64,000 nucleotides of DNA from Mesorhizobium sp. BR1-1-16 (GTDB lineage Bacteria; Pseudomonadota; Alphaproteobacteria; Rhizobiales; Kaistiaceae): NCBI RefSeq assembly GCF_020165495.1, contig NZ_JAIUIE010000004.1:124001-188000 (forward strand). Direction: 5' to 3'. Positions within the stretch are counted from its first letter, which is position 1; each line of letters begins with the position of its first letter. Position numbers and translations under genes: made by a program. The notes below the pieces were generated by a model. It saw only the letters and a list, made by a program, of their open reading frames with translations, was not told the DNA's origin and did not search any database. This document shows positions 24,471 to 42,206 of the stretch, in pieces.

Positions 24471-26121
<1,651 letters not shown>

Positions 26122-26129
<8 letters not shown>

Positions 26130-27024
26130 TGGACGCAACTTTGCTTTCGGCGGCCGGCACCCGCGACTTGCGGGCGCTGCGGGCCCTCAGGACCGGATCA
26201 TTCGCCACCTGGAACCAGTTGCCGAGGATGGTTGCGGCGAGGGCGATCGACGCAATGACGAGACCTGGCCAGAGTGCGCTCCACCATGCGGTGGCGAGAT
26301 AGCGCTGCCCGTCAGAGACCATGAGACCCCAGGTGACGTCCGGCGGCTGGACGCCTATGCCGAGGAATGTCAGCGTCGATTCCGCAAGCATGACCTGGGC
26401 GAATTCGAGCGCCGCCACTGAGAAGAGCGTTGGCAGCGCCAAGGGCGCCATGTGCCGGACCAGGAGGTGCAGGCTGCTCGCGCCCATGACCCGGGAGGCG
26501 GAGACGAACGGCCGCTCGCGGATTTCCAGCGCCTGGCCGCGGGCGGTCCTCGCGAAGATCGGGATGCGTGTCACCGTGAGGATCATCACGACGACCGGAG
26601 GCGAAGCTCCGATGACAAACAGCACGACCATGGCCAGCAGCAGCGACGGGATGCTCATCAGCACATCGATCGCCCGCATGATGGCGGTGCTCCACCAAGC
26701 ATTGCTCAGCCCCGCGACGAGCCCTATGGCGGCGCCGATGACGAGCGACAAACTCACGGTGGCGAAGGAGATCGCCAGCGTCGTTCGCGCCGCGACCACG
26801 AGCCGTGCCAGCATGCTGCGGCCAAGCGCGTCACCGCCGAGCACATACCACCAGCCATGATCGAAGTGGAGCGGCGGAAGATGCCGCAGCCTTAGATTGG
26901 AGCGCATCAGGCTCGCATCGACGATCAGCGGGGCGACGAGCGCTACGACGACGACGGCAAGCAGATAGAGAGCCGCAACCAGCGCCGCCTTGTCATGGAC
27001 GAGACGTCCCAGCATCTGCCTCAT
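26122..27024 (-). CDS. Peptide-type ABC transporter permease (DppC-like)
   Basis: 300 aa. An N-terminal helix (AALVAALYLLAVVVVALVAP) is followed by the periplasmic loop with GGDALGRSMLARLVVAARTTL, the DppC/NikC signature, five further helices, and the EAA coupling loop around REIRERPFVSASRVMGASSLHLLVRHMAPLA. It overlaps the DppB-like gene by 4 bp and the ATPase gene by 8 bp. The C-terminal tail (RARSARKSRVPAAESK) is basic and cytosolic. The family imports di/oligopeptides, nickel or opines; the ligand here is unknown. Confidence 0.93.
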
Positions 27025-27953
27025 CGGCGTGCCTCCCCGCCGATCTGCACACGGGGATCGAGCCGCGCATACATGATGTCGATGGCGACGTTCATCGCAT
27101 AGACGACAACGGCGGCGAGCAGGATGCAGGCGATGGTCAGCGAAAAGTCGCGGTCGCGGATCGAATCGATCATGACCTTTCCGATGCCCGGAAAGCCGAA
27201 GATCGTCTCGATGACGACGGCGCCGTTGACGAGGCCGGTCGCCTGCACGCCGGCAATCGTTATCAGCGGCAGAAGCGAATTGCGGAGCGCATGCACGAAG
27301 ACCACGCGGGCATCGCTGGCGCCCTTGGCGAGCGCGGTCTTGGCATAGGGCGCGCTGAGGCTCGAAACCATGCTCGACCGGACGACTTGCGTCAGCACGC
27401 CGAGCGGTGTCAGCACCAGCACGCAGACGGGCAGGATCCAGTGCACCGGCGTGCCCATGCCGGAGGTCGGTACCCAGCCAAGCATCATCGCAAAGACAAA
27501 GATGGCGACCAGAGCGACCCAGAACGTCGGCGCGGACGCGGTGAAGATCGTCAGCGGACTGATCATGCGGTCGAACAGTCCGTTCGGCCGCATCGCCGCG
27601 AGCGAGCCGAGGACGATCGAGAGGACCAGCGCGATCGACATGGTGAAAAAGGCGAGCGTCAGCGTGATCGGAAATGCCTCGAGCGCGACTTCCATCGCCG
27701 GCCGCTGCTTGAACAGGGATTGGCCGAAGTCACCATGCGCGAGGTCGGAGACATAGTGGATGAACTGCACATAATAGGGGTCGTTGAAGCCGTGCAACGC
27801 TGCAAAGTCGGCGCGCGCCTGCGGCGAGGCCGACAGCGGCAGGTATTGATTGGTCGGATCTCCGGTCAGCCGCGTCATCGCAAAGACGATGAGCAGAAGC
27901 ATCAGAACGGCGTAAAGGCTCTGAAGCGCACGCCGCAGCACATATCGAGCCAT
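27021..27953 (-). CDS. Peptide-type ABC transporter permease (DppB-like)
   Basis: 310 aa. Six helices with the DppB pattern: an N-terminal helix (LYAVLMLLLIVFAMTRLTGDP), a large periplasmic loop ending DFGQSLFKQRPAMEVALEAFPITLTLA, and the EAA loop APYAKTALAKGASDARVVFVHALRNSLLPLITI, followed by GFPGIGKVMIDSI. It is the first permease after the binding protein. The GC hairpin at 27975-27998 separates it from that gene, and its ATG is preceded by GGGGAGGA. Confidence 0.93.
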   Translation of the reverse strand: MARYVLRRALQSLYAVLMLLLIVFAMTRLTGDPTNQYLPLSASPQARADFAALHGFNDPYYVQFIHYVSDLAHGDFGQSLFKQRPAMEVALEAFPITLTLAFFTMSIALVLSIVLGSLAAMRPNGLFDRMISPLTIFTASAPTFWVALVAIFVFAMMLGWVPTSGMGTPVHWILPVCVLVLTPLGVLTQVVRSSMVSSLSAPYAKTALAKGASDARVVFVHALRNSLLPLITIAGVQATGLVNGAVVIETIFGFPGIGKVMIDSIRDRDFSLTIACILLAAVVVYAMNVAIDIMYARLDPRVQIGGEARR

Positions 27954-28016: not shown

Positions 28017-29543
28017 TTACTTGAACTGGATCTGGCTGATCTGAAGCTCTTGGTTGGTCGCGGCGGTCGGCGTGTAGGTGATGCGCGGACCAATCCGGGT
28101 ATCTGTCGTCTGGTGATAGAGGACGGCGTCGACGGCCATGTCATGCACCTTCTTGAAGACGTCACGGAAGATCTCGCCGCGTTCGGGATCGGTCGCGGCC
28201 AGGCCACGCTTGATCTCGCTATCGACCTCGGCGTCGTTCAGCTTCGAGGTGCCGCCCCAGGAAGCGTATTTGCCGACAAGGGTAAATCCGGCATCGCCGC
28301 TGTTGTTGTCATGCGACTCGAAGAGGATGTTGGCAGGCTGTCCGTCGCCGAACGGCTTGTAGAAGAACTTGTAGAATTCGGCCGATTCGAGAATCTGCAG
28401 GCGGACATTCAGGCCGGCGTCCTTCAGCATCTCGATCATCACGGTCGGCGCCTCGGTGCCCCCGGGCGAGCCATTGTTGACGATGAGCAGGATTTCGTTG
28501 TCGACGGGAACGCCGGCGGCGCGGGCCTCGGCAATCAGCGCGCGGGCCTTGTCCGGGTCGTACGGCCAGAACGGCACCGCGTCATTGTAGCCGTTGATCG
28601 TCGGCATCACCATGTTCTTGGCCGGTTGCCAGCTGGCGCTGAAGACGGTGCCGAGCATCGCCTGGCGGTCGAGGGCGTAATTGATCGCCTCGCGGACGCG
28701 GATGTCGTCGAGCGGCGGCTTGCCGATATCGAAGCGCAGGCGAACCGTCTCCGAATTGAGATAGCTGTGGTCGGTGTCCTTGTTGGTCGCGTCCTGTGGA
28801 GCGATGACCGGGGAGATGTCGGCCTCGCCATTGGCCACCATCGCCGCGCGGACGGCTGGCTCTTCGCGGAAGACGTAGGTCACCTTGCCGACTTGCGGCT
28901 TCTCGCCCCAATAGTCCGGATTGCGTTCCGTCGTGATGCTGCGGCCGGATGCCCACTCGACGAGCCGGTAGGGGCCGGTGCCGACCGGATTGCGAACGAG
29001 GGTGTGCGCATCGGTCGCCGGCGATTCGATGCCGACCATCGACATCAGCACAGGCATGATCGGGCTCGGCTGGGGGGTCTTCACGTCAACCGTCAGGTCG
29101 TCGACGGCCGTCAGGTCGACACCCATTCCCTCGAAATAGAGAACGCGGTTCGAGCAGGACAGGTTCGGATCCATCATCCGCTTGAAAGCCTGGATGAAGG
29201 CCGCGGCGTTGAGCGGCTTGCCATCATGAAACTTGACGCCCGGGCGAAGCTTGAAGCGCCACGTGGTGTCGTCGATGGTCGACCAGCTCTCGGCGAGGCG
29301 TGGGTCGACCTTGCCCGTCTGCTGGTTGATCTCGGTCACGGTCTCGACGATGTTCTCGCGGATCACCATGCCGACATTCTTCTTGGTCAGCTCGCAGGGA
29401 TCGAGCGTATCGGGCTCCTGCTCCTGCACGACGGTTATGGCGTCGTTCTGCTGCGCCAGCGCCGGGGCGCCGAAGCCCAGCACGACCGCGCTCGCCAGCA
29501 GGGTGGCTCCTAGAGCCTGTCTTGTTCTCAGCCGATTGGCCAT
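28017..29543 (-). CDS. Peptide-type ABC transporter substrate-binding protein (SBP_bac_5, DppA-like)
   Basis: 508 aa with a signal peptide (ALGATLLASAVVLGFGAPALAQQ). The mature start ITVVQEQEPDTLDPCE and the block RLAESWSTIDDTTWRFKLRPGVKFHDGKPL are characteristic of the DppA/OppA/NikA family; the later GTGPYRLVEWASG and VREAINYALDR also fit. It captures the ligand in the periplasm for the DppBC-DF importer. GAGGGAGGG precedes the ATG at 29543. It lies 102 bp after the first Rieske gene in the transcription direction, so it may have a weak internal promoter but is probably co-transcribed with the amidohydrolases. Confidence 0.94.
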   Translation of the reverse strand: MANRLRTRQALGATLLASAVVLGFGAPALAQQNDAITVVQEQEPDTLDPCELTKKNVGMVIRENIVETVTEINQQTGKVDPRLAESWSTIDDTTWRFKLRPGVKFHDGKPLNAAAFIQAFKRMMDPNLSCSNRVLYFEGMGVDLTAVDDLTVDVKTPQPSPIMPVLMSMVGIESPATDAHTLVRNPVGTGPYRLVEWASGRSITTERNPDYWGEKPQVGKVTYVFREEPAVRAAMVANGEADISPVIAPQDATNKDTDHSYLNSETVRLRFDIGKPPLDDIRVREAINYALDRQAMLGTVFSASWQPAKNMVMPTINGYNDAVPFWPYDPDKARALIAEARAAGVPVDNEILLIVNNGSPGGTEAPTVMIEMLKDAGLNVRLQILESAEFYKFFYKPFGDGQPANILFESHDNNSGDAGFTLVGKYASWGGTSKLNDAEVDSEIKRGLAATDPERGEIFRDVFKKVHDMAVDAVLYHQTTDTRIGPRITYTPTAATNQELQISQIQFK

Positions 29544-29645: not shown

Positions 29646-30056
29646 TCAGGCTTCCACGAGCACATAGGTCCCGTCCGTCTTGACCGGGAACGTCTCGGCC
29701 ACATAGGGGCCTTCGATCAGCTTCCCGCTCCTGACTTCCGTCTTGAAGCTGCGAACCTTGACCCGGTTGGGTTCGCACCACGATTTGCCGGTCCGCACAT
29801 CGAATTCCCAGGCATGCCAGGGGCAACGGATCACGTTGCGGCTCGGGTCGAAATCGTAGATCCCCGGCTCGGTCGACGTGACGGCGACGGTCAGCAGCCC
29901 GTTGCAGAGGTCCGCGCCCTGATGCGGGCAACGGTTGAGCAGCGCATAGAACTCGCCCTCGACGTTGAACACGGCGACCGCCCGCCCGTTCACCTCGATG
30001 ACCCGGCGCGAGCCCGGCGGCATGTCTTCGATCGCCGCGACGACGTGATAGGCCAT
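29646..30056 (-). CDS. Rieske [2Fe-2S] ferredoxin, cassette copy 1
   Basis: 136 aa. The cluster ligands are C43 and H45 in CPHQG and C78 and H81 in CPWHAWEFD, with 32 residues between the two motifs against 16 in the compact Rieske protein at 36801. The insertion (about residues 51-77) contains GIYDFDPSRNVIR. It closely resembles the protein at 34046, with all four ligands at identical positions. It has no catalytic iron domain, so it is an electron carrier, not an oxygenase. It follows amidohydrolase A by 5 bp. The partner it reduces is not obvious in the window. Confidence 0.92.
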   Translation of the reverse strand: MAYHVVAAIEDMPPGSRRVIEVNGRAVAVFNVEGEFYALLNRCPHQGADLCNGLLTVAVTSTEPGIYDFDPSRNVIRCPWHAWEFDVRTGKSWCEPNRVKVRSFKTEVRSGKLIEGPYVAETFPVKTDGTYVLVEA

Positions 30057-30061
30057 GACGG

Positions 30062-31162
30062 TCAGAGTCCGTAGAGCGTGTGGGCATTGCGGAAGCGGAT
30101 GTGGTCGCGCTGCTCGGCCGAAAGCGAAGGCGGCAGGCCGAACTTCGGATCATCGAAATCCCAGTGCGGATAGTCGCTGGCGAAGAGCAGCCGGTCCCAG
30201 CCGATATCGGCCATCGTCTGCGCAACCGCCTGCGGCTGCGGCGCCTCTTCCATCGGCTGTGTGCTGATCCAGACCCGCTCGCGGATATATTCGGACGGCG
30301 GCCGCTTCACATGCGGAACCTCGTCGCGCATCCGGTGCCAGGCGCGGTCGAGCCGCCAGGCAAGGGCGGGAAGCCAGCCGAAACCCGCCTCGATGACAAC
30401 GAAGCGCAAGTCCGGATAGCGGTCGAACACGCCTTCGAAGATCATACTGGCGATCGACGCTTGGCAACCGGCCGGATGGGCGGCGCCTTCCTCGATATAG
30501 TAGGAAGGCCAGCCGCTATTGGTGGACGGAAAGCCGCTATAGCCGAACACATGTGTCGCGACCGGCAGCCCCGCCTCGGAGGCGGCCTCGAAGATGGGCC
30601 AGTAGCGGCGCTTGCCGAGCGGCTCGCTGGTTCGGCTCAGCAACAGCACATGCGCGAAATCGGGTTGGCCGGCGCGCTTGCGGATTTCCTCGCGCGCCGC
30701 CTCGCCATCCTCATAGGGGACAAGGACCGACGCCTTCAGCCGCGGCTCCTGGCTGGTCCAGGCGTCGACGAGCCAGTCGTTCGTTGCCGAGCAAAGCGCG
30801 GCGCTGAAGGCTGAGTTCTGGTCGCCGCCGGACGGGCTGAGCGGATTGAGAATGCCCATCGTGATGCCGTGATGGTCGAGATGCTGGCGCCGCATCAATG
30901 CAAGGTCGCTGCCCGGCGGTCCGGATTCAGGCCAGGCGTCGCGCCGGGCGGCACCCGGCACGATCTTCGGAAACGGCGTTCCCTTGGCGAAGCCGTGCCG
31001 GGACCTCAGGCCGTAAGTCTGCAGATAGTCCCACCAGCGCAGGCTGAGATAGGGACGCAGATCCGCCGCCGAGCGCAGCGCCGGATGGATGTCGCAATCG
31101 ACGAGGGCCGTGGCCTGACGCGCCGACGACTTGTCGGCCGTGTCGGTGAGGGCGATGTTCAT
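30062..31162 (-). CDS. Amidohydrolase family protein A (ACMSD-type TIM barrel)
   Basis: 366 aa of the amidohydrolase-2 family, which includes ACMSD, gamma-resorcylate decarboxylase and 4-sulfomuconolactone hydrolase. Metal-site candidates are D and H in VDCDIHP (22-28), H in VATHVFG (near 210), and D in FASDYPHWDFDD near the C-terminus. The segments PRLKASVLVPYEDGEAA and GWPSYYIEEGAAH define its subgroup. It starts 4 bp inside the end of amidohydrolase B (ATGA overlap), so the two are made together and may form a heteromer. It is the paralogue of protein C at 34458. Reaction unknown: hydrolysis or decarboxylation of a ring-derived acid is the family range. Confidence 0.88.
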   Translation of the reverse strand: MNIALTDTADKSSARQATALVDCDIHPALRSAADLRPYLSLRWWDYLQTYGLRSRHGFAKGTPFPKIVPGAARRDAWPESGPPGSDLALMRRQHLDHHGITMGILNPLSPSGGDQNSAFSAALCSATNDWLVDAWTSQEPRLKASVLVPYEDGEAAREEIRKRAGQPDFAHVLLLSRTSEPLGKRRYWPIFEAASEAGLPVATHVFGYSGFPSTNSGWPSYYIEEGAAHPAGCQASIASMIFEGVFDRYPDLRFVVIEAGFGWLPALAWRLDRAWHRMRDEVPHVKRPPSEYIRERVWISTQPMEEAPQPQAVAQTMADIGWDRLLFASDYPHWDFDDPKFGLPPSLSAEQRDHIRFRNAHTLYGL

Positions 31163-32229
31163 AGGCGCGTCTCCCTGAGCCGTGGGTAGGTCGCCAGCGG
31201 GTTCTGGACCGCCATCTTCTCGATCGAGATGGCGCTGAGACCGGCGGGAACGACCTCATCATTGTCGAACTGCCAATGCGGGTAGTCCGAAGCGAACAGC
31301 AGCATCTCGTCCGACTGGAACTGGTCGATGATCCGCCCGACCGTCTCCACGTCATCGGGCGCGTCCAGCGGCTGTGCGGTGAGGCGTATGTGATCGCGGG
31401 CGATTTCGAGCGGTGGGCGGTCGACCCAGGGGACCTCGCTGCGCGTTCCGCGCCAGAACTTGGTCAATCGCCACAGGAACGGCGTGAACCACGACACGCC
31501 GGATTCGATCATCACGACCTTGAGATTCGGGAACTTGCTGAACACGCCCTCGCAGATTAGGCTGCCGAGCTGGCCCTGGAAGCCAAGCGACTGGGCGGCA
31601 TAGTCCTCGACATAGTAGCTCGGCCAGCCGACCGGCGTGACCGGGAAGCGATAGGCGCTGCCGGCATGGATTCCGATCGGCAGTCCGTGCCGCTCGGCCG
31701 CCTTGTAGATCGGCCAGTAGTGCCGGCGTCCGAGCGGCGCCTCGGCCATGACCGGCATCAGGACCTGGACGAAACGCCGGTCGGCAGCGCAGCGATCGAT
31801 CTCGTCGGCGGCGCGCTCGGGGTTCTGCCACGGGACGATGATCGAGGCGCGCATGCGCGGATCGGCGTCGAGCCACTCCGCCGCCATCCAGTCATTCACC
31901 GCCGTCGCGAGCGCGACGGCCATGTCCTCGCTCAGCACCATGTGGACGCCGTAGATGCAATTGCCGATCGCATGGCCGAGCTGCCAGCGGTCCATGACCG
32001 CCTTGCGATAGCGATCGATGCCTGCAGGGGGCGCGCCCGCATCATCGCGCCAGTCGGGGCGCGCGGTGATCGGCGCCCGCTGCGGATAGGCGTTGGATTC
32101 GAAGCCTGGGATTCCGCGCGATTCAACTGCCTCGCGCCAGTTCGCTGGCAGATGCGGCACGAGAGCCTTCAGCTCCGGAACGACGGGATGCATGTCGCAA
32201 TCGATGGCTCCCAAATTCTGGAGATTCAT
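31159..32229 (-). CDS. Amidohydrolase family protein B
   Basis: 356 aa, same superfamily as A but a different subgroup. Metal-site candidates are D and H in AIDCDMHP (8-15), H in IGIHAGSAYRFP (near 200) and D in FASDYPHWQFD. The blocks DPRMRASIIVPWQNPERAADEI, DRRFVQVLMPVM and PLGRRHYWPIYKAA are shared almost word for word with protein D at 35585, showing that B and D are paralogues. It overlaps A by 4 bp. It follows the ferredoxin reductase gene by 55 bp. Cytosolic; no signal peptide. Confidence 0.88.
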   Translation of the reverse strand: MNLQNLGAIDCDMHPVVPELKALVPHLPANWREAVESRGIPGFESNAYPQRAPITARPDWRDDAGAPPAGIDRYRKAVMDRWQLGHAIGNCIYGVHMVLSEDMAVALATAVNDWMAAEWLDADPRMRASIIVPWQNPERAADEIDRCAADRRFVQVLMPVMAEAPLGRRHYWPIYKAAERHGLPIGIHAGSAYRFPVTPVGWPSYYVEDYAAQSLGFQGQLGSLICEGVFSKFPNLKVVMIESGVSWFTPFLWRLTKFWRGTRSEVPWVDRPPLEIARDHIRLTAQPLDAPDDVETVGRIIDQFQSDEMLLFASDYPHWQFDNDEVVPAGLSAISIEKMAVQNPLATYPRLRETRL

Positions 32230-32284
32230 TTCGCTGCGCCCTTCCGCCCGAACATCTGGTTGTTCCGATGCATGATTCCTCCGC

Positions 32285-33520
32285 TTATTCCGCGGCCGCG
32301 ATCAGCTTCGCCGCGGCTCCGATGTCGAAATCGGGATCGGCGGCCTGTGCGGCTGTGATGGTCATGCCGGCGCCGAGCAGTCGGCGCGCGGCCATGTGGG
32401 TTCTGGCATTGTTGATCGACTCGACGCCGACGAGGCGCCCCCGGCGAAAGCAGAAGACCGTCAGCCGTCCATCAGGTCCGTCGCGTCGCGAGACCGCGAG
32501 GTCGTGCCCCTGCGTGATGCCGGCGATCTGCAGTTTCAGCTCATACTGGTCGCTCCAGAACCAGGGCAGCGCCGTGTAGCGCGCCTTGCCTCCGGTGAGC
32601 GCGGCCGCCACCGTACGGCCCTGGTCGGTCGCGTTCTGGACCGACTCGATGCGCATCGATGCCCCGGCATGGGTGTTCGGATGGTGGGCGCAGTCGCCGA
32701 CCGCATAAATGCCCGGCACGGCCGTCGCGAGGCCGGTATCGACTTGGATGCCTTCGCGGTTGCCGATGCCGATATCGCCGGCAAGCTCAGCATTCGCTAT
32801 CGCACCGACTGCGATCAGCACGAGATCCGCGGGAACGCGGAGACCAGCCTTCGTTACGACCGCGCTGACGCGCGTCTGTCCCTCGATCGCAAGGACGCTG
32901 TCGCCCGTCACGATCGTGACGCCGCGCCTGCGGTGCTCCGCCGCCAGCTGGTCGGCCGTCTCGGCGGAGACGGCGCGGCCGAGGATGCGGGGAGCCGCCT
33001 CGATCACGGTCACCTGCCGGCCCTCGCCTGCCGCGACCGCGGCGAATTCGAGCCCGATCATGCCGCCGCCAATGATCGCCACATGGTCGGCGCCCTGAAG
33101 CGCTTCGCCGAGCCGGAGCGCATCGTCGAGGCTGCGAAGCGTCATGACGCCGTCGAGATCCCGCCCCGGTATCGGCGGCACCAGCGGCCGGGCACCGGTG
33201 GCCAGCACCAGAGCGTCGTAGTCAATCACCGCTCCATCTGCGGTCACGACCCGGCGCTCATTCGGGGCGAGGGTGGCGATGCGCGTATCAGGAACGAACT
33301 CGATCCGCCGGTCCTCGAAGAAGCGTGCCGACCGCAGCACCTGCAGCGCCGCTCCGCCCGGCTTCGCCAGCGTCTTGGACAAGGGCGGGCGGTGATAAGG
33401 CAGATGCGCCTCGTCCGAGATCATGACGATACGGCCGTCATAGCCGTTGTCCCTGAGCGAGGCGGCCGTCTGGACGCCGGCATGGCTGGCGCCGATGATG
33501 AGCGTGGTTGCGGCCGCCAT
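32285..33520 (-). CDS. FAD-dependent ferredoxin reductase
   Basis: 411 aa, the length of putidaredoxin/rubredoxin/BphA4-type reductases. FAD loop GASHAG (10-15, with S-H replacing the usual GxG middle), the PYHRPPLSK segment near 41-49 that packs on the flavin, ATGARP near 110, the NAD loop GGGMIGLEFA near 150, and the C-terminal FAD motif YAVGDCAHHPN. It passes electrons from NAD(P)H to the ferredoxin encoded immediately upstream, with which it overlaps by one base. Family partners normally feed a cytochrome P450 or a Rieske oxygenase, neither of which is present in the window. Confidence 0.94.
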   Translation of the reverse strand: MAAATTLIIGASHAGVQTAASLRDNGYDGRIVMISDEAHLPYHRPPLSKTLAKPGGAALQVLRSARFFEDRRIEFVPDTRIATLAPNERRVVTADGAVIDYDALVLATGARPLVPPIPGRDLDGVMTLRSLDDALRLGEALQGADHVAIIGGGMIGLEFAAVAAGEGRQVTVIEAAPRILGRAVSAETADQLAAEHRRRGVTIVTGDSVLAIEGQTRVSAVVTKAGLRVPADLVLIAVGAIANAELAGDIGIGNREGIQVDTGLATAVPGIYAVGDCAHHPNTHAGASMRIESVQNATDQGRTVAAALTGGKARYTALPWFWSDQYELKLQIAGITQGHDLAVSRRDGPDGRLTVFCFRRGRLVGVESINNARTHMAARRLLGAGMTITAAQAADPDFDIGAAAKLIAAAE

Positions 33521-33843
33521 CAGACTTGCCTCTCCGGCAGTGTCACGACCAGCCCGTCCAACCCGGCGGTGACGGCGATCTGGCAGCCGAGGCGGCTGTT
33601 CGGCTGCCTTTCGCTGGCGGCGAAATCGAGCATCTCGTCTTCGACCGGGCTGACCTCACCAACCAAGGGCAGGAAGGCCTCGTCGACATAGACATGGCAG
33701 GTCGCGCAGGAGGCGGAGCCGCCACACTCGGCGACGATGCCGTCTATGCCGTTGGCGATGGCGCCCTGCATCACCGAATCGCCGGCGCGGACATCGACCG
33801 AATGGGCAACGCCTGACGGCGACAGATAGGTCACGCGCGGCAT
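33520..33843 (-). CDS. [2Fe-2S] ferredoxin, putidaredoxin/adrenodoxin type
   Basis: 107 aa from the ATG at 33843 (MPRVTYLSPSG), the family start. Cysteines C40, C46, C49 and C87 give C-x5-C-x2-C-xn-C, which separates this class from plant-type ferredoxins. It takes electrons from the reductase just downstream. The frame stays open to an ATG at 33903, but the strong ribosome site GGGAGGAAGG near 33930 serves neither: it is spaced for an ATG at 33920 in another frame, whose 29-codon reading frame ends just past the ferredoxin ATG (stop at 33831-33833). That small frame may be a leader that couples translation into the ferredoxin. Confidence 0.92.
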   Translation of the reverse strand: MPRVTYLSPSGVAHSVDVRAGDSVMQGAIANGIDGIVAECGGSASCATCHVYVDEAFLPLVGEVSPVEDEMLDFAASERQPNSRLGCQIAVTAGLDGLVVTLPERQV

Positions 33844-33995
33844 GCCGTCGACGCCCGTTGCAGCTGGACTTCGTGACGGGACGTCGCGCAGGCAGTTGGC
33901 CATGCGGAACTCATCGGCATGCTGTCACCCTTCCTCCCGGATCGGCGCGGCTGGTGCCGCTGTCGTTCCAGCCATCAGACCTGAGGAAAGGCTGT

Positions 33996-34028
33996 ACTGA
34001 TAGGATCAGTATATTTGAATATCGATAT
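33996..34028. promoter_or_regulatory. Cluster of three AT-rich palindromes upstream of the ferredoxin gene
   Basis: ACTGAT-AGG-ATCAGT (33996-34010), ATATT-TG-AATAT (34011-34022) and ATATCGATAT (34019-34028) follow each other in the gap between Rieske copy 2 and the ferredoxin. The minus strand reads TATACT within it, a plausible -10. This AT-rich patch contrasts with its GC-rich surroundings and probably marks an internal regulated promoter for the ferredoxin-reductase-amidohydrolase B-A part. Confidence 0.5.
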
Positions 34029-34045
34029 GAACAGATCGGTGACGA

Positions 34046-34465
34046 CTACAGCGACAGGAGGAGGTACTCCCCCTCCGGCTTGACGTCGAAGGTCTCGACG
34101 CCCTTCACGTCGTCGAGGCTTTCGATCTCTTTGCCGCCGGCTACGGCAAGGGCAAATTGAGCGACTTTCACCGCGTCCGGCCTGCAGCGGGACCGGCCCG
34201 TGCGGATGTCGAATTCCCAGCCGTGCCAGGGGCACCGGATGATCTCGCCCTGTCGGCTGTAACGATAGTCCGCCGGCCGGTCGGATTCCGCGAGCCCGGC
34301 CTGGTAGCCGTTGAAAAGGCTGCCGCCTTGATGCGGACAGGTGTTCAATAGCCCGAACCACTCCTCTCCCAGCCTGAAAATCACGACAGGTCGCCGGTTG
34401 ACCTCCACCAGCATGCGGCCGCTTGCGGGAAAATCCTCGATCTTGCAGACGACATATCTAGCCAT
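34046..34465 (-). CDS. Rieske [2Fe-2S] ferredoxin, cassette copy 2
   Basis: 139 aa. C43 and H45 (CPHQG), C78 and H81 (CPWHGWEFD), with the same 32-residue inter-motif loop as copy 1 at 29646. The two share MA-YVV--IEDFP-type beginnings and the IRCPWH-WEFD-RTG block, so they are paralogues that moved with their amidohydrolase neighbours. The ATG at 34465 overlaps the end of amidohydrolase C by 8 bp; four upstream in-frame codons are ignored. It is an electron carrier or an electron-accepting regulatory subunit; target unknown. Confidence 0.92.
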   Translation of the reverse strand: MARYVVCKIEDFPASGRMLVEVNRRPVVIFRLGEEWFGLLNTCPHQGGSLFNGYQAGLAESDRPADYRYSRQGEIIRCPWHGWEFDIRTGRSRCRPDAVKVAQFALAVAGGKEIESLDDVKGVETFDVKPEGEYLLLSL

Positions 34466-35588
34466 GCGGAATTCCATAGAGATCGAGCGCGTTCTTCAGG
34501 AAGAAGCGGTCGCGGCGCTCCCTGCTGAGCGGCAACGGCATCGCGCGCTGGGGATCGTCGAAATCCCAATGCGGATAATCGGAGGCAAACAGCACGCGGT
34601 CCCAGCCGATCCAGTCGATCACTTCGGCGATGTGCTGGCGGTTGGCCGGTTCCTCGATCGGTTGCGACGTCAGCCAGACGCTCTCGCGGATATATTCGGA
34701 AGGCGGCCGCGGCAGATGAGCCAGTTCGTCCCTGCTGCGCTCCCAGATGCGATCAAGGCGCCAGCGGAGCGACGGCAGCCAGCCGAGCCCGCCTTCGATG
34801 AGGGCGACGCGCAGCGTCGGAAAGCGTTCGAAGACACCTTCGAGGACCAGACTGGCCAGCGCGGATTGCGAAGTCTGGGCGTGGCTCATCATGTCCTCGC
34901 CGTAGTAAGAGGGCCAGCCGCCGCCCGTAATCGCCCAGCCGCCATTGCCGAATGCATGGACGCCGATGGGTAGGCCGACTTCGGCGGCAGCAGCATAGAT
35001 CGGCCAGAAGCTCCGATGGCCAATGGGATTGGGAAGACGGCTCAGCAGAGACACCTGCACGAAGTCCCGCTTGCCTGCCAGGCGGTGGATTTCGGCGACG
35101 GCCGCCTGCGGGTCCTGATAGGCAGCAACGATCGAACCGCGGAGCCGCGGCTCGCGGGATGTCCATTCCTCGACCTGCCAGTCGTTGATGGCGGTGCAGA
35201 GCGCGACCGAGAGATCGATATTCTGCAGCGACTGCGCAGCGCCGAGCGGGATCAACACCCCGAATTGCACATTGTTGGGGTCGAGATGCTGGGCGCGCAT
35301 GAAGTCGAGATCGCTTCCCGGCATGCCGCCGCCTGGCGGGAAGGCATCACGCCGGACGGCCATTGGCTGCCCCTTGGGATACTGCATCTCCTGCGTAAAA
35401 CCTTGACGCGCCAGCATACCCACGGTCGCAATATGGGTGCGCCAGCGGGGCGCCAGCCGCGAGAAGATGTCTTTCTCCATCGAGCGAGGCGCCGGATGAA
35501 TGTCGCAATCGGCAATCGCTTGGCGGCCGCCGACAATGACCGCTGGCCGCGCTGCAGCCCCTCCGGCTGGGGTCGAAACATCGGTCAC
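34458..35588 (-). CDS. Amidohydrolase family protein C
   Basis: 376 aa from a GTG at 35588 in a GTGA overlap with protein D, giving (M)TDVSTPAGG; a longer frame to 35705 runs through the coding end of D and is rejected. Metal-site candidates: D and H in IADCDIHP, H in IGVHAFGNGG, D in FASDYPHWDFDD. It shares with protein A the order RRDAFP...PGSDLDFMRAQHLD and the C-terminal NALDLYGI, so it is A's paralogue. It has an extra N-terminal 25 residues rich in A, G and V. Co-translation with D suggests the pair works as a complex. Confidence 0.88.
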   Translation of the reverse strand: MTDVSTPAGGAAARPAVIVGGRQAIADCDIHPAPRSMEKDIFSRLAPRWRTHIATVGMLARQGFTQEMQYPKGQPMAVRRDAFPPGGGMPGSDLDFMRAQHLDPNNVQFGVLIPLGAAQSLQNIDLSVALCTAINDWQVEEWTSREPRLRGSIVAAYQDPQAAVAEIHRLAGKRDFVQVSLLSRLPNPIGHRSFWPIYAAAAEVGLPIGVHAFGNGGWAITGGGWPSYYGEDMMSHAQTSQSALASLVLEGVFERFPTLRVALIEGGLGWLPSLRWRLDRIWERSRDELAHLPRPPSEYIRESVWLTSQPIEEPANRQHIAEVIDWIGWDRVLFASDYPHWDFDDPQRAMPLPLSRERRDRFFLKNALDLYGIPHG

Positions 35589-36688
35589 GGCACCACCCCT
35601 TCGGCAAGTCGCGGATAGGTGGCGAGCGGATTGGCTCGACTGATGTGCGCGATCTGGTCCGGGCTCACTCCAGCGGGCAGCAGGTCGTCGCCGTCGAAGC
35701 GCCAATGCGGAAAGTCGCTCGCGAACAGGAGCATTTCATCGGACCCGATATGGTCGAGTAGGCGCTCGACAACCGCGGGATCGGCGGGGGTGTCGAACGG
35801 CTGGGTCGTGAGACGAACCCTGCTGCGGACGATCTCGCTGGGCGGCACCTTGACCCAGGGCGTCTCGCTGCGGAGGCCATGCCAGTATTTGTCGAGCCGC
35901 CACAGATAGGGCGGCAACCAACTGACGCCGGTCTCGCTGAGGACGACGCGAAGGGTCGGGAAGGCGCCGAAAACGCCCTCGAGGATCAGACTGGTGAGCT
36001 GTGTCTGGAACGCAGAGGCTTGCGAAAAATAGTCCTGCGCATAGTAGCTCGGCCATCCCGTGCCTGTGACCGGGTGACGGTACATGCTGCCGGCATGGAT
36101 GCCGACTGGCAGCCCACATTCCTCCGCCGCCTCATAGATCGGCCAGTAGTAGCGCTTGCCGAGCGGCATCTCGCCCATGACCAGCATCAGGACCTGCACG
36201 AAGCGGCGATCCGTGGCGACACGGCGGATCTCTTCGGCGGCCATGGTCGGATTTTGCATCGGCACGACGATCGAAGCCCGCAGCCGCGGTTCGTTGTCGA
36301 GCCATTCGCGCGCTATCCAATCGTTCAGCGCCCGAGCGATCGACTGCCCCATGTCCTCGCTGTGCAGCAGCTGGACGCCATAGAGGCAGTTGCAGATGGC
36401 GGCTGAAAAACCGTAGCGGTCGAGCAGGTTGACCTGGAGGCTGCGGAGTTGATCCCTGACAGACGCTGGCTCGGGCAACCGCCAGTCCGGCCTCGCATTA
36501 ATCGGGGCCTGCCGCGGGAACGCCGCCGTATCGAGGGTCTGCAGACCGCGCTGCAGCGAGACGTCGCGCCAATATTCATCGAGATATGGCAGCAGCGCGT
36601 CCCGGTGCGGCACCGTGATCTGGACGTCGCAATCGACCGCGCCTCTATAGGGCCGCGGCCGGTCTCCTCCGACATTCAGATCGTTCAT
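35585..36688 (-). CDS. Amidohydrolase family protein D
   Basis: 367 aa, paralogue of protein B. One feature stands out: at the first metal motif the sequence is GAVDCDVQITVP, with Q in place of the H of DCD-x-HP found in A, B and C. The remaining site residues (H in VGIHAGSMYRHP, D in FASDFPHWRFD) are kept. Loss of the first metal histidine may mean that D has altered or no catalytic activity and serves as partner to C. The start ATG at 36688 is 18 bp inside a CTGAC/GTCAG repeat region, and the gene lies 112 bp after the Rieske 3 gene. Confidence 0.87.
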   Translation of the reverse strand: MNDLNVGGDRPRPYRGAVDCDVQITVPHRDALLPYLDEYWRDVSLQRGLQTLDTAAFPRQAPINARPDWRLPEPASVRDQLRSLQVNLLDRYGFSAAICNCLYGVQLLHSEDMGQSIARALNDWIAREWLDNEPRLRASIVVPMQNPTMAAEEIRRVATDRRFVQVLMLVMGEMPLGKRYYWPIYEAAEECGLPVGIHAGSMYRHPVTGTGWPSYYAQDYFSQASAFQTQLTSLILEGVFGAFPTLRVVLSETGVSWLPPYLWRLDKYWHGLRSETPWVKVPPSEIVRSRVRLTTQPFDTPADPAVVERLLDHIGSDEMLLFASDFPHWRFDGDDLLPAGVSPDQIAHISRANPLATYPRLAEGVVP

Positions 36689-36705
36689 CGTCCGAAATGT
36701 CCTCC

Positions 36706-36727
36706 CTGACAGATCATGTTACGTCAG
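36706..36727. promoter_or_regulatory. Inverted repeat ahead of amidohydrolase D
   Basis: CTGAC (36706-36710) and GTCAG (36723-36727) are inverse arms 12 bp apart, 18-39 bp before the start of D, in the gap following Rieske 3. Could be a second operator in the array. Confidence 0.3.
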
Positions 36728-36800
36728 TCGCCTTCGTGCGCTAGGCGCACATCCCGCCGCGATGGATAGGAACAGATGCAGCGGCTGGCCGCGCTGGCCT

Positions 36801-37136
36801 CTACGCTTCGTCCTCCGGCAGCAGCACCTCGACGCCATCGGCGGCGACCCTGACCGGATAGATGATCAGCTGCTCCTCGGCCGGCTCACGCACGGCCCGG
36901 CCGGTCTCGACCTCGAAGCGCCCGCCATGCAGCGGGCATTCGATGATGTCGTCGTCGAGCCAGCCATCGGAGAGTATCGCGAAGGCATGGGTGCACACAT
37001 TCTGTGTGGCATGGAAGGTGCCCCGGACATTGCAGATCGCGAGCTTGTGCTCGCCAACCTCGACGCCGACCATCATGCCCGGCGCCAGGTCTTCGGCTGG
37101 GAAGAGGCGGGTCCATGTGCCGTCACGTATTGGCAT
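36801..37136 (-). CDS. Compact Rieske [2Fe-2S] ferredoxin (Rieske 3), head of the array
   Basis: 111 aa, the size of BphF/NdoA-type ferredoxins. Ligands C48 and H50 in CTHAFAIL and C67 and H70 in CPLHGGRFE, with the normal short spacing. The C-terminal VRVAADGVEVLLPED is typical of dioxygenase ferredoxins and of the small subunit of nitrite reductase. Being first in a minus-strand array that also has a reductase and another ferredoxin, it suggests an oxygenase-type electron chain, yet no oxygenase alpha subunit is found. A 14-bp palindrome lies 17-30 bp before its start. Confidence 0.93.
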   Translation of the reverse strand: MPIRDGTWTRLFPAEDLAPGMMVGVEVGEHKLAICNVRGTFHATQNVCTHAFAILSDGWLDDDIIECPLHGGRFEVETGRAVREPAEEQLIIYPVRVAADGVEVLLPEDEA

Positions 37137-37338: not shown

Positions 37339-38751
37339 ATGAACTGGCGCTACCAGGAGGTGGTCCGCTTCGTGCAAAACTGCATCGATACGGGAACGCT
37401 CAAGCCAGGGGAGAGGCTGCAATCGGTGCGCGAGATGAGCGCCCAGACCGGCTTCAGTGTCGTCACGGTTCACCATGCCTATTCGCTGCTCGAAAGTGAG
37501 GGCATGATCGAGGCTCGGCCCCGATCCGGTTTCTATGTTGCCCATACGCCCCAGATCTCGACCGATTTCCCCGAGTTGGTCGTCCCCCACGGCAAAGCAA
37601 GCGGGGAAGTATCGATCTCCGTCCAGCTCTACAGGTTGATGGCCCTGTGGCGCGACCGGAAGATCGAAACCTTCGGCTCGCTTCACCCGAGCAGCGACCT
37701 CCTGCCGACGCAGGAGTTGCTGACCCATATGCGCCGATTCCTGCGCAACGTCCGACCCGACCGGCCTCCGGTCACGTCGCTGGCCGGGTCTTCGGATCTG
37801 CGCGACATCGTCTCGCGCCGGGCGGCCACACGCGGCATACGCATCCGCGAGAACAACACGATCGTCACCAGCAGCAGCCAGACGGCGCTCGATCTCTGCC
37901 TCGACGTGGTCACGCGGCCGGGGGATCTCGTGATGATCGAGAGCCCGTCCTATTTTCCGCTGTTCGCGGCGCTGCAGCGACGGCATCTGCGAGCGATCGA
38001 AATCTACTCCCATCCGATGACCGGCATCGATCCCGACCAGTTCGATCATCTCATCGACACCAACGACATCCGCGCCTGCCTGTTGATGCCGGTGAACCAC
38101 TTTCCGACGGGGGTGAGCTATCCCGAGGGCGTATTGCAGCGCATCGCCTCCAAAGCGGGCGACAAGGCCGTTCCGATCATCGAATACGACACATTCTCGG
38201 AGCTCACCCATGCGCCCAGCAATCCGCACTCGCTGAAGAATTTTGATCGCAACGACTTTGTTCTGCAAATCGGCAGCTTTGCCTCGACGCTGGGACCGCT
38301 CGCCGGCGCAGGCTGGGTGCTGAACAGCCGCTATCGCGAGGCGATCCTGGAAAAGCTCGTCTTTACCGACCTGGCCGCCGGCGAAGCGGCCTTGCAGCAC
38401 GCCATCGCTGAATGCATCGTCCGCCACAGCTATGACCGCCAGTTGAGGCACATCCGCGAGCAGTTGAAGGCTCGGATGCGCAGGGGCATGCATCTGGTCG
38501 CGCAGCTGTTTCCGCGACAGTGCACGATCTCCCGGCCCTCGGGCGGCTTCATGTGCTGGATCCGCCTGCCGGGAAACGTCGACTCCATTGCCCTGGCCGA
38601 ACGCGCAGCGGATCTCGGCATCTCGATCATCCCGGGGCCGCTTCTTTCGGTGGCCAGTTCATTCCGCAACTTCATCGGCCTCAATTTTTCGTTCGAATGG
38701 ACGGACGCGACCGAAGACCGCCTTGCCACGCTCGCCGGCCTGCTGGAATGA
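37339..38751 (+). CDS. MocR/PdxR-type regulator (GntR HTH plus aminotransferase-like domain) lacking the PLP lysine
   Basis: 470 aa. Residues about 5-70 are a GntR winged helix (GERLQSVREMSAQTGFSVVTVHHAYSLLESEGMIEARP); about 90-465 resemble a fold-type I aminotransferase. In normal MocR proteins the PLP Schiff-base lysine lies in GSFSKTLxPGLR; here the block is GSFASTLGPLAGAG, with serine (S316) at the lysine position. The carboxylate-binding arginine of the C-terminal RLNF motif is also changed (G447 in FIGLNFS). PLP therefore cannot be bound covalently, and the domain may bind another ligand or act as a dimer scaffold. No good ribosome site is visible. It is divergent from the amidohydrolase array, which it probably controls. 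Confidence 0.9.
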   Translation: MNWRYQEVVRFVQNCIDTGTLKPGERLQSVREMSAQTGFSVVTVHHAYSLLESEGMIEARPRSGFYVAHTPQISTDFPELVVPHGKASGEVSISVQLYRLMALWRDRKIETFGSLHPSSDLLPTQELLTHMRRFLRNVRPDRPPVTSLAGSSDLRDIVSRRAATRGIRIRENNTIVTSSSQTALDLCLDVVTRPGDLVMIESPSYFPLFAALQRRHLRAIEIYSHPMTGIDPDQFDHLIDTNDIRACLLMPVNHFPTGVSYPEGVLQRIASKAGDKAVPIIEYDTFSELTHAPSNPHSLKNFDRNDFVLQIGSFASTLGPLAGAGWVLNSRYREAILEKLVFTDLAAGEAALQHAIAECIVRHSYDRQLRHIREQLKARMRRGMHLVAQLFPRQCTISRPSGGFMCWIRLPGNVDSIALAERAADLGISIIPGPLLSVASSFRNFIGLNFSFEWTDATEDRLATLAGLLE

Positions 38752-39168: not shown

Positions 39169-39366
39169 TTGGCTCTGCCAACGCCCCGCCCGGTGACCGT
39201 CAGCTTGAGACTGGATTCACTTCCGGCCCGCGTCCATGACGCGATTTCAGGGGAGGATATCCTTCTCCCGTCGACCGATAGCGGGCGGATCGAGGTGGCG
39301 GTGCCGTCGCCGCATATCCATCGCGCGATCGGGCTCGAGAGCGGCCTTCGAAGGCGACGTCGCTAA
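39169..39366 (+). pseudogene. Possible C-terminal remnant of a glycoside hydrolase
   Basis: A 65-codon frame reads RLDSLPARVHDAISGEDILLPSTDSGRIEV, then AVPSPHIHRAIGLE. The pattern 'D-alpha-(S/T)GE...G-x-(I/L)-x-(V/L)-x-(V/L)-P-x-x-hydrophobic-x-(V/L)' resembles the all-beta C-terminal domain of GH13/GH36-type glycosidases. With no upstream catalytic part, it would be a decayed end fragment. It overlaps the GntR stop by 4 bp on the other strand. Low certainty; a chance frame is possible. Confidence 0.3.
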
Positions 39367-40157
39367 CCCTCGCGGATGGACGACAAACCGAGATCGACCA
39401 CGGCGATGTTCAGGAGTTGCGTCATCGTCGCAAACGCGCCTTCGCTGTCGCGCATGCGGACGCGGTCGATCACCTCGCCATGCATGGAAAGGGAGGCGCC
39501 CGGCTCGCGGGCACGCGCAATGGTGAGGCGGAAGGAATAGGCCAGCGCTGCGCCGATCGTGTTGGAGAGCTGCTGGAAGACGATGTTGCGGCTCGCGCGG
39601 AGCAGCGCCGTGTGAAAATCGATGTCGGCCCGGTTGAAGGCGTCGAAGTCCTGCGACTGCTTGTGGCGGCTCATGAGGCGGAAGGCCTCCTCCATCGGCG
39701 CGATGTCGGCGGCGGTGGCGCGCAGGGCTGCGAGGCGCGCCGCGGCCGGCTCGATCACCTGCCGCGCCTCGATGAGGCTCAGGACCAGCTCGGCGCTTGG
39801 CCGCAATTCCATGGACCAGGCCAGCAGATCGGGATCGAGCAGGTTCCAGTAGTCGCGCGCGCGGACCACCGTGCCGACACGCGGGCGCGTCGTCACCATG
39901 CCCTTGGAATCAAGAACCTTGATCGCCTCGCGCATCGCGCTGCGGCTGACATTGAACATGCCGCAGAGTTCCGGTTCGGACGGAAGCACAGTGCCCGGCA
40001 TGAATTCGCCGTCGAGGAGACGCTGCGCCAGCGTCTTCACGACGTGGCGATGGACGCGCGGCTTGACGAGCGCCTTGGCAAGCGGCTTGGTCGGCGCGGC
40101 GGATAGCGTCAATTCGTGTGCCCTCTCGAGGCCGCCCCGGAGCGGCCCTTCATTCAT
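39363..40157 (-). CDS. FCD-domain GntR family regulator (FadR subfamily)
   Basis: 264 aa. The winged helix spans about residues 35-100 (LPSEPELCGMFNVSRSAMREAIKVLDSKGMV), the ligand-binding FCD domain about 120-250, with metal or acid-binding candidates D178 and H182 (ADIDFH) and a later H in SLSMHGEV. FCD-GntR proteins respond to sugar acids such as galactonate, gluconate or glucuronate and usually repress. It ends an operon with a galactonate-dehydratase-like enzyme and an SDR, and is the natural reader of the repeats between the divergent promoters at 42099-42188. The ATG at 40157 overlaps the SDR stop by 8 bp. Confidence 0.92.
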   Translation of the reverse strand: MNEGPLRGGLERAHELTLSAAPTKPLAKALVKPRVHRHVVKTLAQRLLDGEFMPGTVLPSEPELCGMFNVSRSAMREAIKVLDSKGMVTTRPRVGTVVRARDYWNLLDPDLLAWSMELRPSAELVLSLIEARQVIEPAAARLAALRATAADIAPMEEAFRLMSRHKQSQDFDAFNRADIDFHTALLRASRNIVFQQLSNTIGAALAYSFRLTIARAREPGASLSMHGEVIDRVRMRDSEGAFATMTQLLNIAVVDLGLSSIREG

Positions 40158-40911
40158 GATAGAGCACGGAACGCCCGCCATCGATGGCGATCGATGTGGC
40201 GTTGATGAAGGGCGCCTCGTCACTGGCGAGAAAAACGGCCGTCATCGCCACCTCCTCGGGCCGGCCAATGCGGCCGGGCGGATGCAGGCGATAGGTGCGT
40301 TGCCGCTCCGCCTCCGGGTCGGGGAAGCCGTTCCAATATTCGATAGCGAGATCGGTCTCGATATAGCCGGGCGCGATCGCGTTCACCCGGATGTTGCGGG
40401 CGGCATATTCGATGCCGAGCGCGCGGGTGAGACCGAGCAGGCCGTGCTTCGCCACCGGATAGGGGAAGGTGTGCGGAATGATAGTGGAGCTGTGCGAGGA
40501 GGCGATGTTGACGATCGAACCGCCCTTGCCAGCGAGCATCACCGGCAGCACAGCACGGCAGACGCGCCAGACGCCTTCGAGATCGACGGCCATGCAGCGC
40601 GCCCATTCGGCGTCCGTCGTCTCCAGCGGTTCGTGAAAGACATTGATGCCTGCATTGTTCACGAGTCCGTCGATGCGGCCGAACCGGGCGACGACCGTCT
40701 CGACCAAGGCGTCGACCGAGGATTGAGCCGTCACATCGGTCTCGACGAACAGCGCCCGTTCGCCGAGCTTCTCCGCCATGGCCGCGCCGGTGAGCGGATC
40801 GCGCTCGGCAATGGCGACATGCGCACCGGCCTCGATGAAGGCGCGGGCAATGGCCGCGCCGATGCCGCGGCCTGCTCCGGTGACGATGGCGATCTTGTCC
40901 GCGAGGCGCAT
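40150..40911 (-). CDS. SDR family oxidoreductase of the sugar-acid operon
   Basis: 253 aa from the ATG at 40911 (MRLADKIAIVTGAGRGIG), one base after the upstream stop. Cofactor loop TGAGRGIG, NNAG, catalytic serine in NIASSHSS, and YPVAK; the C-terminus reads AIDGGRSVLYHE. An acidic residue at the end of beta-2 (AERD) suggests NAD. In non-phosphorylative sugar pathways such enzymes oxidise a sugar to its lactone or a 2-keto-3-deoxy acid further on; both fit next to a sugar-acid dehydratase. Confidence 0.92.
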   Translation of the reverse strand: MRLADKIAIVTGAGRGIGAAIARAFIEAGAHVAIAERDPLTGAAMAEKLGERALFVETDVTAQSSVDALVETVVARFGRIDGLVNNAGINVFHEPLETTDAEWARCMAVDLEGVWRVCRAVLPVMLAGKGGSIVNIASSHSSTIIPHTFPYPVAKHGLLGLTRALGIEYAARNIRVNAIAPGYIETDLAIEYWNGFPDPEAERQRTYRLHPPGRIGRPEEVAMTAVFLASDEAPFINATSIAIDGGRSVLYHE

Positions 40912-40912
40912 T

Positions 40913-42085
40913 TTACCAGTCCGCGATCGTGCCATCGGGAAGGATGGCGTTCTGCGTATGCAACACTTCCTGCGCGTAAGGGTGGCGCGCGCATTCCGCC
41001 TCGTTCACGACGACGCCGAGGCCCGGCGTTTCCGGAACCTGCCAGTAACCGTCGACACGGCGGATCGGGCCCTCGACGACATCGAAATACCAGGGCACGG
41101 CGCCGACCATCTCCTCCTGGATGACGTGGTTCGGCGTCGAGACGGCAAAATGCAGCGCTGCCACGCCGGCAATCGGCCCGAGCGGGTTATGCGGTGCAAC
41201 GCCGATGCCGAGCGCCTCGGCCCGGGCGGCAATCTTCTTCGCCTCGAGCAGGCCGCCACAATGGCAGATATCGGGCTGCACGATGTCGATGGAGCGCGTC
41301 GCGAACAGCGCCTCGAAATCGGCCCGCTCGATCAGCCGCTCTCCGGTGGCGAGCGGAACGCGGCTTCGCCCTGCGAGACTGGCGAGCGCCTGGAAATCGC
41401 CCGGCTGCACCGGCTCCTCGACGAACATCGGCCGCGAAGGCGCGAGCGCCTCGATATAAGCGAGCGCCGCGCCGGCCGAGGCCGGACGGCCGTGGAAGTC
41501 GACCATGATCTCGATCGTATCGCCCACCGCCGCACGCATCGCTTCCATCATGCGCGCCACCTTGTCCACATCCGGCAGGGGCGCGTGGTAGTGCGTGTAG
41601 GGCACGAACACCGCCTTGAACGCGCGGTAGCCGTTCTCCACCACCTCGCGTGCGCGCTCCACCAGCGGGGCAACATCCGTCGTCTCGTAGACGGCGCGCA
41701 TGTCGCCCATGCCGAGATGCGTATAGACGCCGACGCGGTCACGCACCTTGCCGCCGAGCAGCCGCCAGACCGGCACGCCGAGATGCTTGCCGAGAATGTC
41801 CCAGAGCGCCATCTCGATGCCGGAGACCGCGCTCATACCGATGGCGCCGAGGCGCCAGAAGCTCTGCTTGGTCATGACGCGGAACGCCTGCTCGATGTCG
41901 CGCGGATCCCGTCCGATCAGGAGCGGGGCGAGATCCTCGACCGCCCCGACCACCGCGCGGGTCTTCCATTCGAGCGTCGCCTCGCCCCAGCCGAAGAGGC
42001 CCGGCTCGTCGGTCTCGACCTTGACGAAAACCCAGTTTCGCATCTCGGCATTGACGACCCGCGTCGTAATAGCAGTAATCTTCAA
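40913..42085 (-). CDS. Enolase-superfamily sugar-acid dehydratase (galactonate dehydratase-like)
   Basis: 390 aa from a TTG at 42085, which gives (M)KITAITTRV as in DgoD and in the paralogue at 51730; an ATG at 42100 is also in frame but would be almost leaderless. Metal ligands fit D196, E223 and E249 (VDFHGR, FVEEPV, TGERL), with H198 and H299 (VAPHNPLGP) as the acid/base pair of the galactonate dehydratase branch. It removes water from an aldonic acid to give a 2-keto-3-deoxy acid. Which sugar acid is unknown: galactonate, gluconate and others are possible. It is the first gene of a three-gene minus-strand operon divergent from a sugar importer and GH2 glycosidase. Confidence 0.88.
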   Translation of the reverse strand: MKITAITTRVVNAEMRNWVFVKVETDEPGLFGWGEATLEWKTRAVVGAVEDLAPLLIGRDPRDIEQAFRVMTKQSFWRLGAIGMSAVSGIEMALWDILGKHLGVPVWRLLGGKVRDRVGVYTHLGMGDMRAVYETTDVAPLVERAREVVENGYRAFKAVFVPYTHYHAPLPDVDKVARMMEAMRAAVGDTIEIMVDFHGRPASAGAALAYIEALAPSRPMFVEEPVQPGDFQALASLAGRSRVPLATGERLIERADFEALFATRSIDIVQPDICHCGGLLEAKKIAARAEALGIGVAPHNPLGPIAGVAALHFAVSTPNHVIQEEMVGAVPWYFDVVEGPIRRVDGYWQVPETPGLGVVVNEAECARHPYAQEVLHTQNAILPDGTIADW

Positions 42086-42111
42086 GGCGCACCCATACAT
42101 CTGATTATTCG

Positions 42112-42140: not shown

Positions 42141-42154
42141 CAGTTCCGAACGGC

Positions 42155-42184: not shown

Positions 42185-42206
42185 AATCAACCAGGGAGGA
42201 TGATTG

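Follow-up and report, generated by a model that had tools for sequence, protein, structure and literature searches.

Two amidohydrolase-fold protein pairs of Mesorhizobium sp. BR1-1-16 as probable AibH1H2-type monooxygenases

Where is the oxygenase of a locus that encodes an electron chain and three Rieske proteins, and in which neither a P450 nor an alpha subunit of a Rieske oxygenase is found? The question is posed by a 64,000-nt stretch of contig NZ_JAIUIE010000004.1 of Mesorhizobium sp. BR1-1-16 (the window), in which a minus-strand run of 13 genes, from 37136 to 24471, holds two pairs of amidohydrolase-like genes (D/C and B/A), a ferredoxin (Fdx), a ferredoxin reductase (FdR) and the Rieske proteins R1-R3, the only PF00355 matches in the window. 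A preliminary description of this DNA spoke of a duplicated cassette without an oxygenase, and proposed either that the amidohydrolases act with the redox proteins in an undescribed conversion or that the oxygenase is encoded elsewhere. In light of the purely computational analysis given here, the run very probably (roughly nine chances in ten) codes for two distinct AibH1H2-type monooxygenases, each made of several components and each a member of the class named AROs. Given that A and C carry the ARO dinuclear ligand set, the "missing" oxygenase is probably the amidohydrolase pair itself. The absence of an oxygenase holds for Rieske alpha subunits and P450s at the locus but probably not for A and C, in which that ligand set is complete. 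The genes concerned are the following.

36801-37136, minus strand: R3, Rieske ferredoxin with a short loop (16 residues), of the ordinary dioxygenase type (PF00355, 75.6 bits)
35585-36688, minus strand: D, AibH1-type auxiliary subunit with an altered Site 0 (best PDB match 6m1w_A, AibH1, 9e-86)
34458-35588, minus strand: C, AibH2-type catalytic subunit with a GTG start (best PDB match 6m1w_B, AibH2, 2.7e-85)
34046-34477, minus strand: R2, AibG-like Rieske ferredoxin with a long loop (32 residues), putative partner of C/D (PF00355)
33520-33903, minus strand: Fdx, putidaredoxin-type [2Fe-2S] ferredoxin (best PDB match 4ltu, 1.9e-33)
32285-33520, minus strand: FdR, FAD/NAD(P) ferredoxin reductase (Pyr_redox_2 and Reductase_C)
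31159-32229, minus strand: B, AibH1-type auxiliary subunit (best PDB match 6m2i_A, 2.2e-79, then 6m1w_A, 2.3e-79; both AibH1)
30062-31162, minus strand: A, AibH2-type catalytic subunit (best PDB match 6m1w_B, AibH2, 2e-87)
29646-30056, minus strand: R1, Rieske ferredoxin with a long loop (32 residues), putative partner of A/B (PF00355)

Amidohydrolase pairs and their metal ligands

The layout is as first described: nine open reading frames (ORFs), all on the minus strand, with the orders D-C-Rieske 2 and B-A-Rieske 1, with Fdx, FdR and the third Rieske protein in the same run, and with a 4-bp overlap of coordinates in both B/A and D/C. The pairing of B with D and of A with C likewise stands, as A and C are 51.4% and B and D 56.8% identical, far above the 35.5-40.3% of the four cross pairs and above shuffled sequences (30 shuffles per pair, the top shuffle score being zero or below for every pair).

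All four proteins bear the Pfam label Amidohydro_2 (PF04909), and for each the closest solved structure is AibH2 or AibH1 (2e-79 to 2e-87). Against PDB sequences, A scores 297-169 bits to AROs and AibH1 and at most 66 bits to decarboxylases, and B scores 270-172 bits to AROs and AibH1 and at most 53 to all others; at 1e-20, C and D retrieve AROs and AibH1 only, plus PtmU3 in the case of C. Structure models, all of single chains, reached a predicted local distance difference test score (pLDDT) of 84.4 for A and 87.3 for D, and the best Foldseek match of D is 8ful_A (template modelling score, TM, 0.87), with 40% identity between D and AibH1 in the structural match. Judged by sequence, and for D by its predicted model as well, A-D are PF04909-fold proteins whose nearest kin lie among the characterised AROs.

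According to the published accounts, cited here from excerpts, the oxygenase in the Aib monooxygenase of Rhodococcus wratislaviensis is AibH1H2, its electron donor is a Rieske protein, and activity required all four of AibH1, AibH2, AibG (the Rieske protein) and AibF (the reductase) (PMC7782822). The active form has been assigned as Mn/Fe, and among 555 AibH2-like proteins a small Rieske protein co-occurs in 90% (PMC10401708); the Rieske neighbourhood was used to find SfbO and others, and the class was named AROs (PMC10811679). Such cassettes are published as a family (PMC10401708, PMC10811679), and at the level of enzyme class the supposed undescribed conversion falls away, the class having been described in 2021-2024.

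The ligands known from these enzymes can be read directly in the window proteins. In AibH2 the dinuclear centre is made by D25, H27, H211, E265, D337 and H340, with D342 in contact via water, and in AibH1 a mononuclear site, Site 0, is made by D24, H26, H201, E255 and D328 (excerpts of PMC7782822). Aligned to AibH2, both A and C read DHHEDHD, exactly as AibH2 and SfbO do, so that all six dinuclear ligands and the acid at AibH2 position 342 are present. The same string occurs in 114 of 114 AibH2-type relatives in a census of 219, the other 105 being AibH1-type; class was assigned by similarity rather than by ligands, and rows that were short or had a stop in the matched stretch were dropped before counting (8 in the first ligand alignment, 5 in the census). 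B reads DHHEDHQ, AibH1 itself DHHEDHH, and B keeps all five Site 0 ligands (D, H, H, E, D). At the last position the 105 AibH1-type relatives show 95 Q, 6 H, 2 D and 2 Y; the AibH1-type (H1) genes of two related loci, L119 and L120, have Tyr at the position matching acid 342 of AibH2.

Comparison with AibH1H2GF of R. wratislaviensis C31-06 (PDB 6M1W, 6M2I, 8FUL-8FUO; excerpts of PMC7782822 and PMC10401708) shows the same H1-H2-Rieske order (H2 for AibH2-type), what is probably again an amidohydrolase-fold heteromer, the six dinuclear ligands in H2, a small Rieske ferredoxin and a transporter in the cluster. The window run differs in having two oxygenases rather than one, an Opp-type ATP-binding cassette (ABC) importer rather than the permease AibT, and a subunit D without the Site 0 His of AibH1; further, none of the 19 window proteins scanned with Pfam is of the serine hydroxymethyltransferase (AibC) or alanine dehydrogenase (AibA) type. 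SfbO and the other candidate AROs (PDB 8SM6-8SM9; excerpts of PMC10811679) are also PF04909 proteins found via a Rieske neighbour, and the dinuclear ligands of SfbO are identical to those of A and C. However, the window proteins score higher to AibH1 or AibH2 than to SfbO and the other three AROs, and they form two H1/H2 pairs. PtmU3, the diiron hydroxylase of platensimycin biosynthesis (6OMP), belongs to the same superfamily (A: 1.6e-21) but is much more distant. The proposal that A/B and C/D are heteromers working with the redox proteins is probably right.

ARO genes easily mislead annotation: the relatives whose annotation was looked up in three plasmid records carry the label "amidohydrolase family protein". 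This label, and a Pfam call that is merely Amidohydro_2, would suit A-D as ordinary non-redox enzymes of the amidohydrolase superfamily (decarboxylases or hydrolases), with the Rieske proteins serving an oxygenase elsewhere. Such a reading is improbable given the much higher scores of all four proteins to AROs and AibH1 than to decarboxylases or others and the full dinuclear set in A and C, and its odds turn further on which other oxygenases exist.

Other oxygenases and the Rieske neighbourhood

Within this genome PF00848 has no match. The searches recognised a single frame of Rieske oxygenase alpha type, which is 442 aa long, has Rieske and LigXa_C domains and lies on contig C1 (L002:511-1839); contig C28 has a 269-aa Rieske protein with no second Pfam domain, and PF00067 (P450) finds one frame, on contig C26. 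The first and last of these give the non-redox alternative somewhat better odds, the C1 frame lifting it from very slight to still slight. They also give some substance to the idea of an oxygenase encoded elsewhere, but nothing links either frame to the locus, and that idea is the less likely one, since an oxygenase site is already present in A and C. An oxygenase encoded next door was sought at the locus and not found.

Relatives provide a broader view. Where a PF00848 match and a cassette are on the same contig, the distance between them is some 11 kb or more (contig C192 of genome G077), in a search that was directed at 37 of 80 loci and covered 36 genomes (L071 left out), that misses LigXa-type subunits, and in which draft contigs hide neighbours past their ends. 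A motif scan of 58 loci found a single ORF resembling a Rieske oxygenase, with Rieske and LigXa_C domains, about 3 kb off in L079, where H1 is not adjacent; the P450 signature occurred in none of the 58, PF00067 in relatives being judged among the matches listed. In these searches the cassettes of relatives do without an adjoining Rieske oxygenase, L079 excepted, which again speaks against the non-redox alternative and against an external alpha subunit as the customary partner. A cassette normally adjoining such a subunit was the finding that the preliminary description had named as refuting its view.

What does adjoin them is a Rieske ferredoxin gene. In the window R1 follows A and R2 follows C. 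Of 80 related loci retrieved with C, 60 have at least 1.6 kb on either side of H2 (20 near a contig end were dropped), and among these a tblastn search placed H1 adjacent in 54, a Rieske gene within 3 kb in 49 and both in 48, the co-occurrence that the preliminary description had proposed to look for. In the control, a Rieske-like match lies more than 3 kb upstream in 5 of 41. An earlier motif count with an ORF-length limit (38 of 58) had missed genes in long open frames and is superseded. None of the seven further PF04909 matches in this genome has a PF00355 match closer than 50 kb. In annotated plasmid records of Roseomonas gilardii, Microvirga terrae and Mesorhizobium sp. AR07, H1 and H2 again overlap by 4 bp; the Microvirga stretch lists a PDR/VanB-family oxidoreductase, and no Rieske gene is listed for the AR07 stretch in the PLSDB table, which is incomplete.

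R1 and R2 are 46.3% identical, and the spacer between CxH and CxxH is 32 residues in both and 16 in R3, so that the common loop first noted for the two cassette proteins is confirmed. The same spacing of 32 is seen in 101 of 104 pieces from related loci, gathered by likeness to R1/R2 and possibly counting one gene twice where loci overlap. An R3-like gene also lies ahead of D in L008 and L010.

Different origins of the cassettes

Despite its appearance, the double layout did not arise as a copy of one cassette. Tandem duplication was considered and rejected: approximately unbiased (AU) tests refuse A+C and B+D as sister pairs (p = 1.2e-5 and 6.5e-4), and the word "duplicated" fits the layout, not the history. 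Genome G259 is the neighbour of one half: A groups with it in the H2 tree, a quick search (Shimodaira-Hasegawa-like approximate likelihood ratio test, SH-aLRT, 100), and B does so in the H1 tree (100/99). For the other half the neighbours are L008/L010/L011, with which C groups in the H2 tree (99) and D in the H1 tree (100/96). C and D fall with pairs of Limibaculum, Pseudooceanicola and Oceanicola. In a smaller quick H1 tree D belongs to no starred group, although by path the row closest to it remains L008. The alike gene order and the 51-57% identity between like subunits would suit a local tandem duplication of one cassette, but such an event is scarcely credible beside these trees and beside the counterparts of each half. 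Locus L147 of G259 has the window's own order, Fdx-FdR-B-A-R1 (61, 49, 69, 72 and 66% identity), and L008 of Limibaculum has a divergent MocR gene (49%), FdR (35%), R3 (52%), D (60%), C (61%) and R2 (53%), with R3-D-C-R2 in order. Since each matches one half, the window joins two operon types that are separate elsewhere.

The joining of two pairs is not confined to this genome. An H1-H2-H1-H2 arrangement is also present in G407 and G346, of one genus (L133, L134), and in G077 (L135), and in all three loci the two pairs sit in different groups of both trees (a statement from the trees, the AU tests covering the window pairs), the two H2s of G407/G346 sharing one weakly supported larger group. 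Further, L083 has two H2 genes and L048 one H2 and part of another. These loci were noticed in passing rather than by systematic survey, and recurrence in two other lineages may suggest that having two is useful. No report of two-ARO operons was found in open-licence papers. Among 397 genomes sampled from the order, 29, with G000 counted, have a match to D at 1e-60 or better. Relatives of D below 60% identity are found in 84 plasmid records, including Sinorhizobium, Mesorhizobium, Rhodococcus and haloarchaea, and 50 of the 84 are typed conjugative.

Subunit D, the electron chain and likely workings

Subunit D is an unusual component of the run. It reads DQHEDHR, with Gln in place of the DxH His of Site 0, a residue kept by 105 of 105 AibH1-type relatives; no report of an AibH1-type subunit without this ligand was found in open-licence papers. 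The Gln is encoded by CAG and the Arg by CGC, and the Gln could stem from a single misread base. In sequence and in predicted fold alike, AibH1 is still the best match of D, which is predicted to retain that fold. This loss is notable because Site 0 substitutions in AibH1 gave insoluble protein (excerpts of PMC10401708), and D is a natural test of the role of the auxiliary metal site, a matter those excerpts leave open. That the Arg of D occupies Site 0 is a guess.

Two cassettes of separate ancestry could have been joined for convenience, the two oxygenases acting on alternative substrates or C/D being a decaying second copy that shares importer and redox chain; the ligand lost from D would suit this. 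It is a possibility of some weight, though doubtful, given that H1-H2-H1-H2 in two other lineages may suggest two to be useful. Neither C nor D looks decayed, as D departs from the near-invariant columns at 1 of 50 (H1 set; the DxH His itself) and C at 1 of 52, and both reading frames are open.

As two monooxygenases, the complexes would work as follows. O2 would be activated at a dinuclear centre, Mn/Fe or Fe2, in AibH2-like A or C, with AibH1-like B or D as the structural partner of that subunit, and R1 or R2 would pass electrons to its own oxygenase. The electron route is probably NAD(P)H to FdR, on to Fdx and/or R3, then to R1/R2 and finally to A/C. The importer would take in a small compound, perhaps one bearing an amino or N-alkyl group, and both enzymes might hydroxylate it, most simply in succession; consecutive action is given a little under an even chance. 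More tentative still is the combined proposal that joining two phylogenetically distinct AROs in an operon is a design that recurs and serves the stepwise, O2-dependent hydroxylation of one imported compound, here with one P450-style chain, and that D shows an auxiliary subunit able to dispense with a metal site thought necessary for folding, Arg and Gln perhaps substituting for the metal.

The chain resembles a class I P450 system because Fdx is putidaredoxin-like (4ltu is its best PDB match and putidaredoxins are among the next). As its best PDB matches begin at residue 20-23, Fdx may truly start at the ATG of codon 21. FdR is nearest to the NCBIfam models HcaD/AndAa, below their cut-offs.

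Several of these features weigh against the run as a pair of AibH1H2-type monooxygenases. Rather than a flavin mononucleotide (FMN)/[2Fe-2S] reductase of the AibF type, the window has a flavin adenine dinucleotide (FAD)-type reductase, a separate putidaredoxin-type ferredoxin and a third Rieske protein, and such a built-in Fdx/FdR pair is unusual: of 60 related loci, just two have an FdR-like gene no more than 5 kb away. The genome does have a LigXa-type Rieske oxygenase frame and a P450 frame, on other contigs. D, without one Site 0 ligand, could make the C/D complex weak or inactive, and no close relative of D was found in 13 same-genus genomes, which points to patchy acquisition. Finally, the neighbouring genes in the window, L147, L135 and L008/L010 name no single substrate.

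Such hints as there are concern nitrogen. L135 is flanked by M20, DUF1989 and DAO genes, and after the closest A/B relative (L147:11906-17398) lie a creatininase-family gene, an NMT1/THI5-type ABC transporter and an Amidohydro_3 gene; the neighbours of L008/L010 give no substrate clue. The L147 and L135 neighbours hint at nitrogenous compounds without agreeing on one, and with the MocR regulator they weakly suggest an amine or amide as substrate.

Few members of the ARO class, itself recent among oxygenases, have been characterised. Of interest here are the union of two distinct AROs and a redox chain in a single run and the loss of a metal ligand from an auxiliary subunit; as the locus gathers two AROs, a dedicated redox chain, an importer and a regulator, expression and metabolite feeding could reveal a pathway. 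The peptide-type importer noted after the cassettes is indeed Opp-like, and these genes complete the locus.

28017-29543, minus strand: importer solute-binding protein, family 5 (SBP_bac_5, 4.1e-80)
27021-27953, minus strand: importer permease 1 (BPD_transp_1)
26122-27024, minus strand: importer permease 2 (BPD_transp_1, OppC_N)
24471-26138, minus strand: two-domain importer ATPase (ABC_tran in two stretches, oligo_HPY)
37339-38751, plus strand: divergent MocR-type regulator (GntR helix-turn-helix PF00392 and aminotransferase-like PF00155)

The 13 genes may well be transcribed as a single transcript, with the MocR-type regulator as its probable controller; the L008 counterpart is likewise divergent from its cassette. 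Just downstream of the importer lie an Fe/Mn superoxide dismutase gene (23063-23665, minus strand) and a divergent gene for a Cys-rich helix-turn-helix regulator (23731-24429, plus strand; weak MarR_2 match), possibly an oxidative-stress neighbour of the oxygenases. Positions 39363-43963 hold a GntR/FCD regulator, short-chain dehydrogenase/reductase (SDR) and mandelate-racemase/enolase-family genes and two permease-like frames, a group that looks like a separate sugar-acid cluster.

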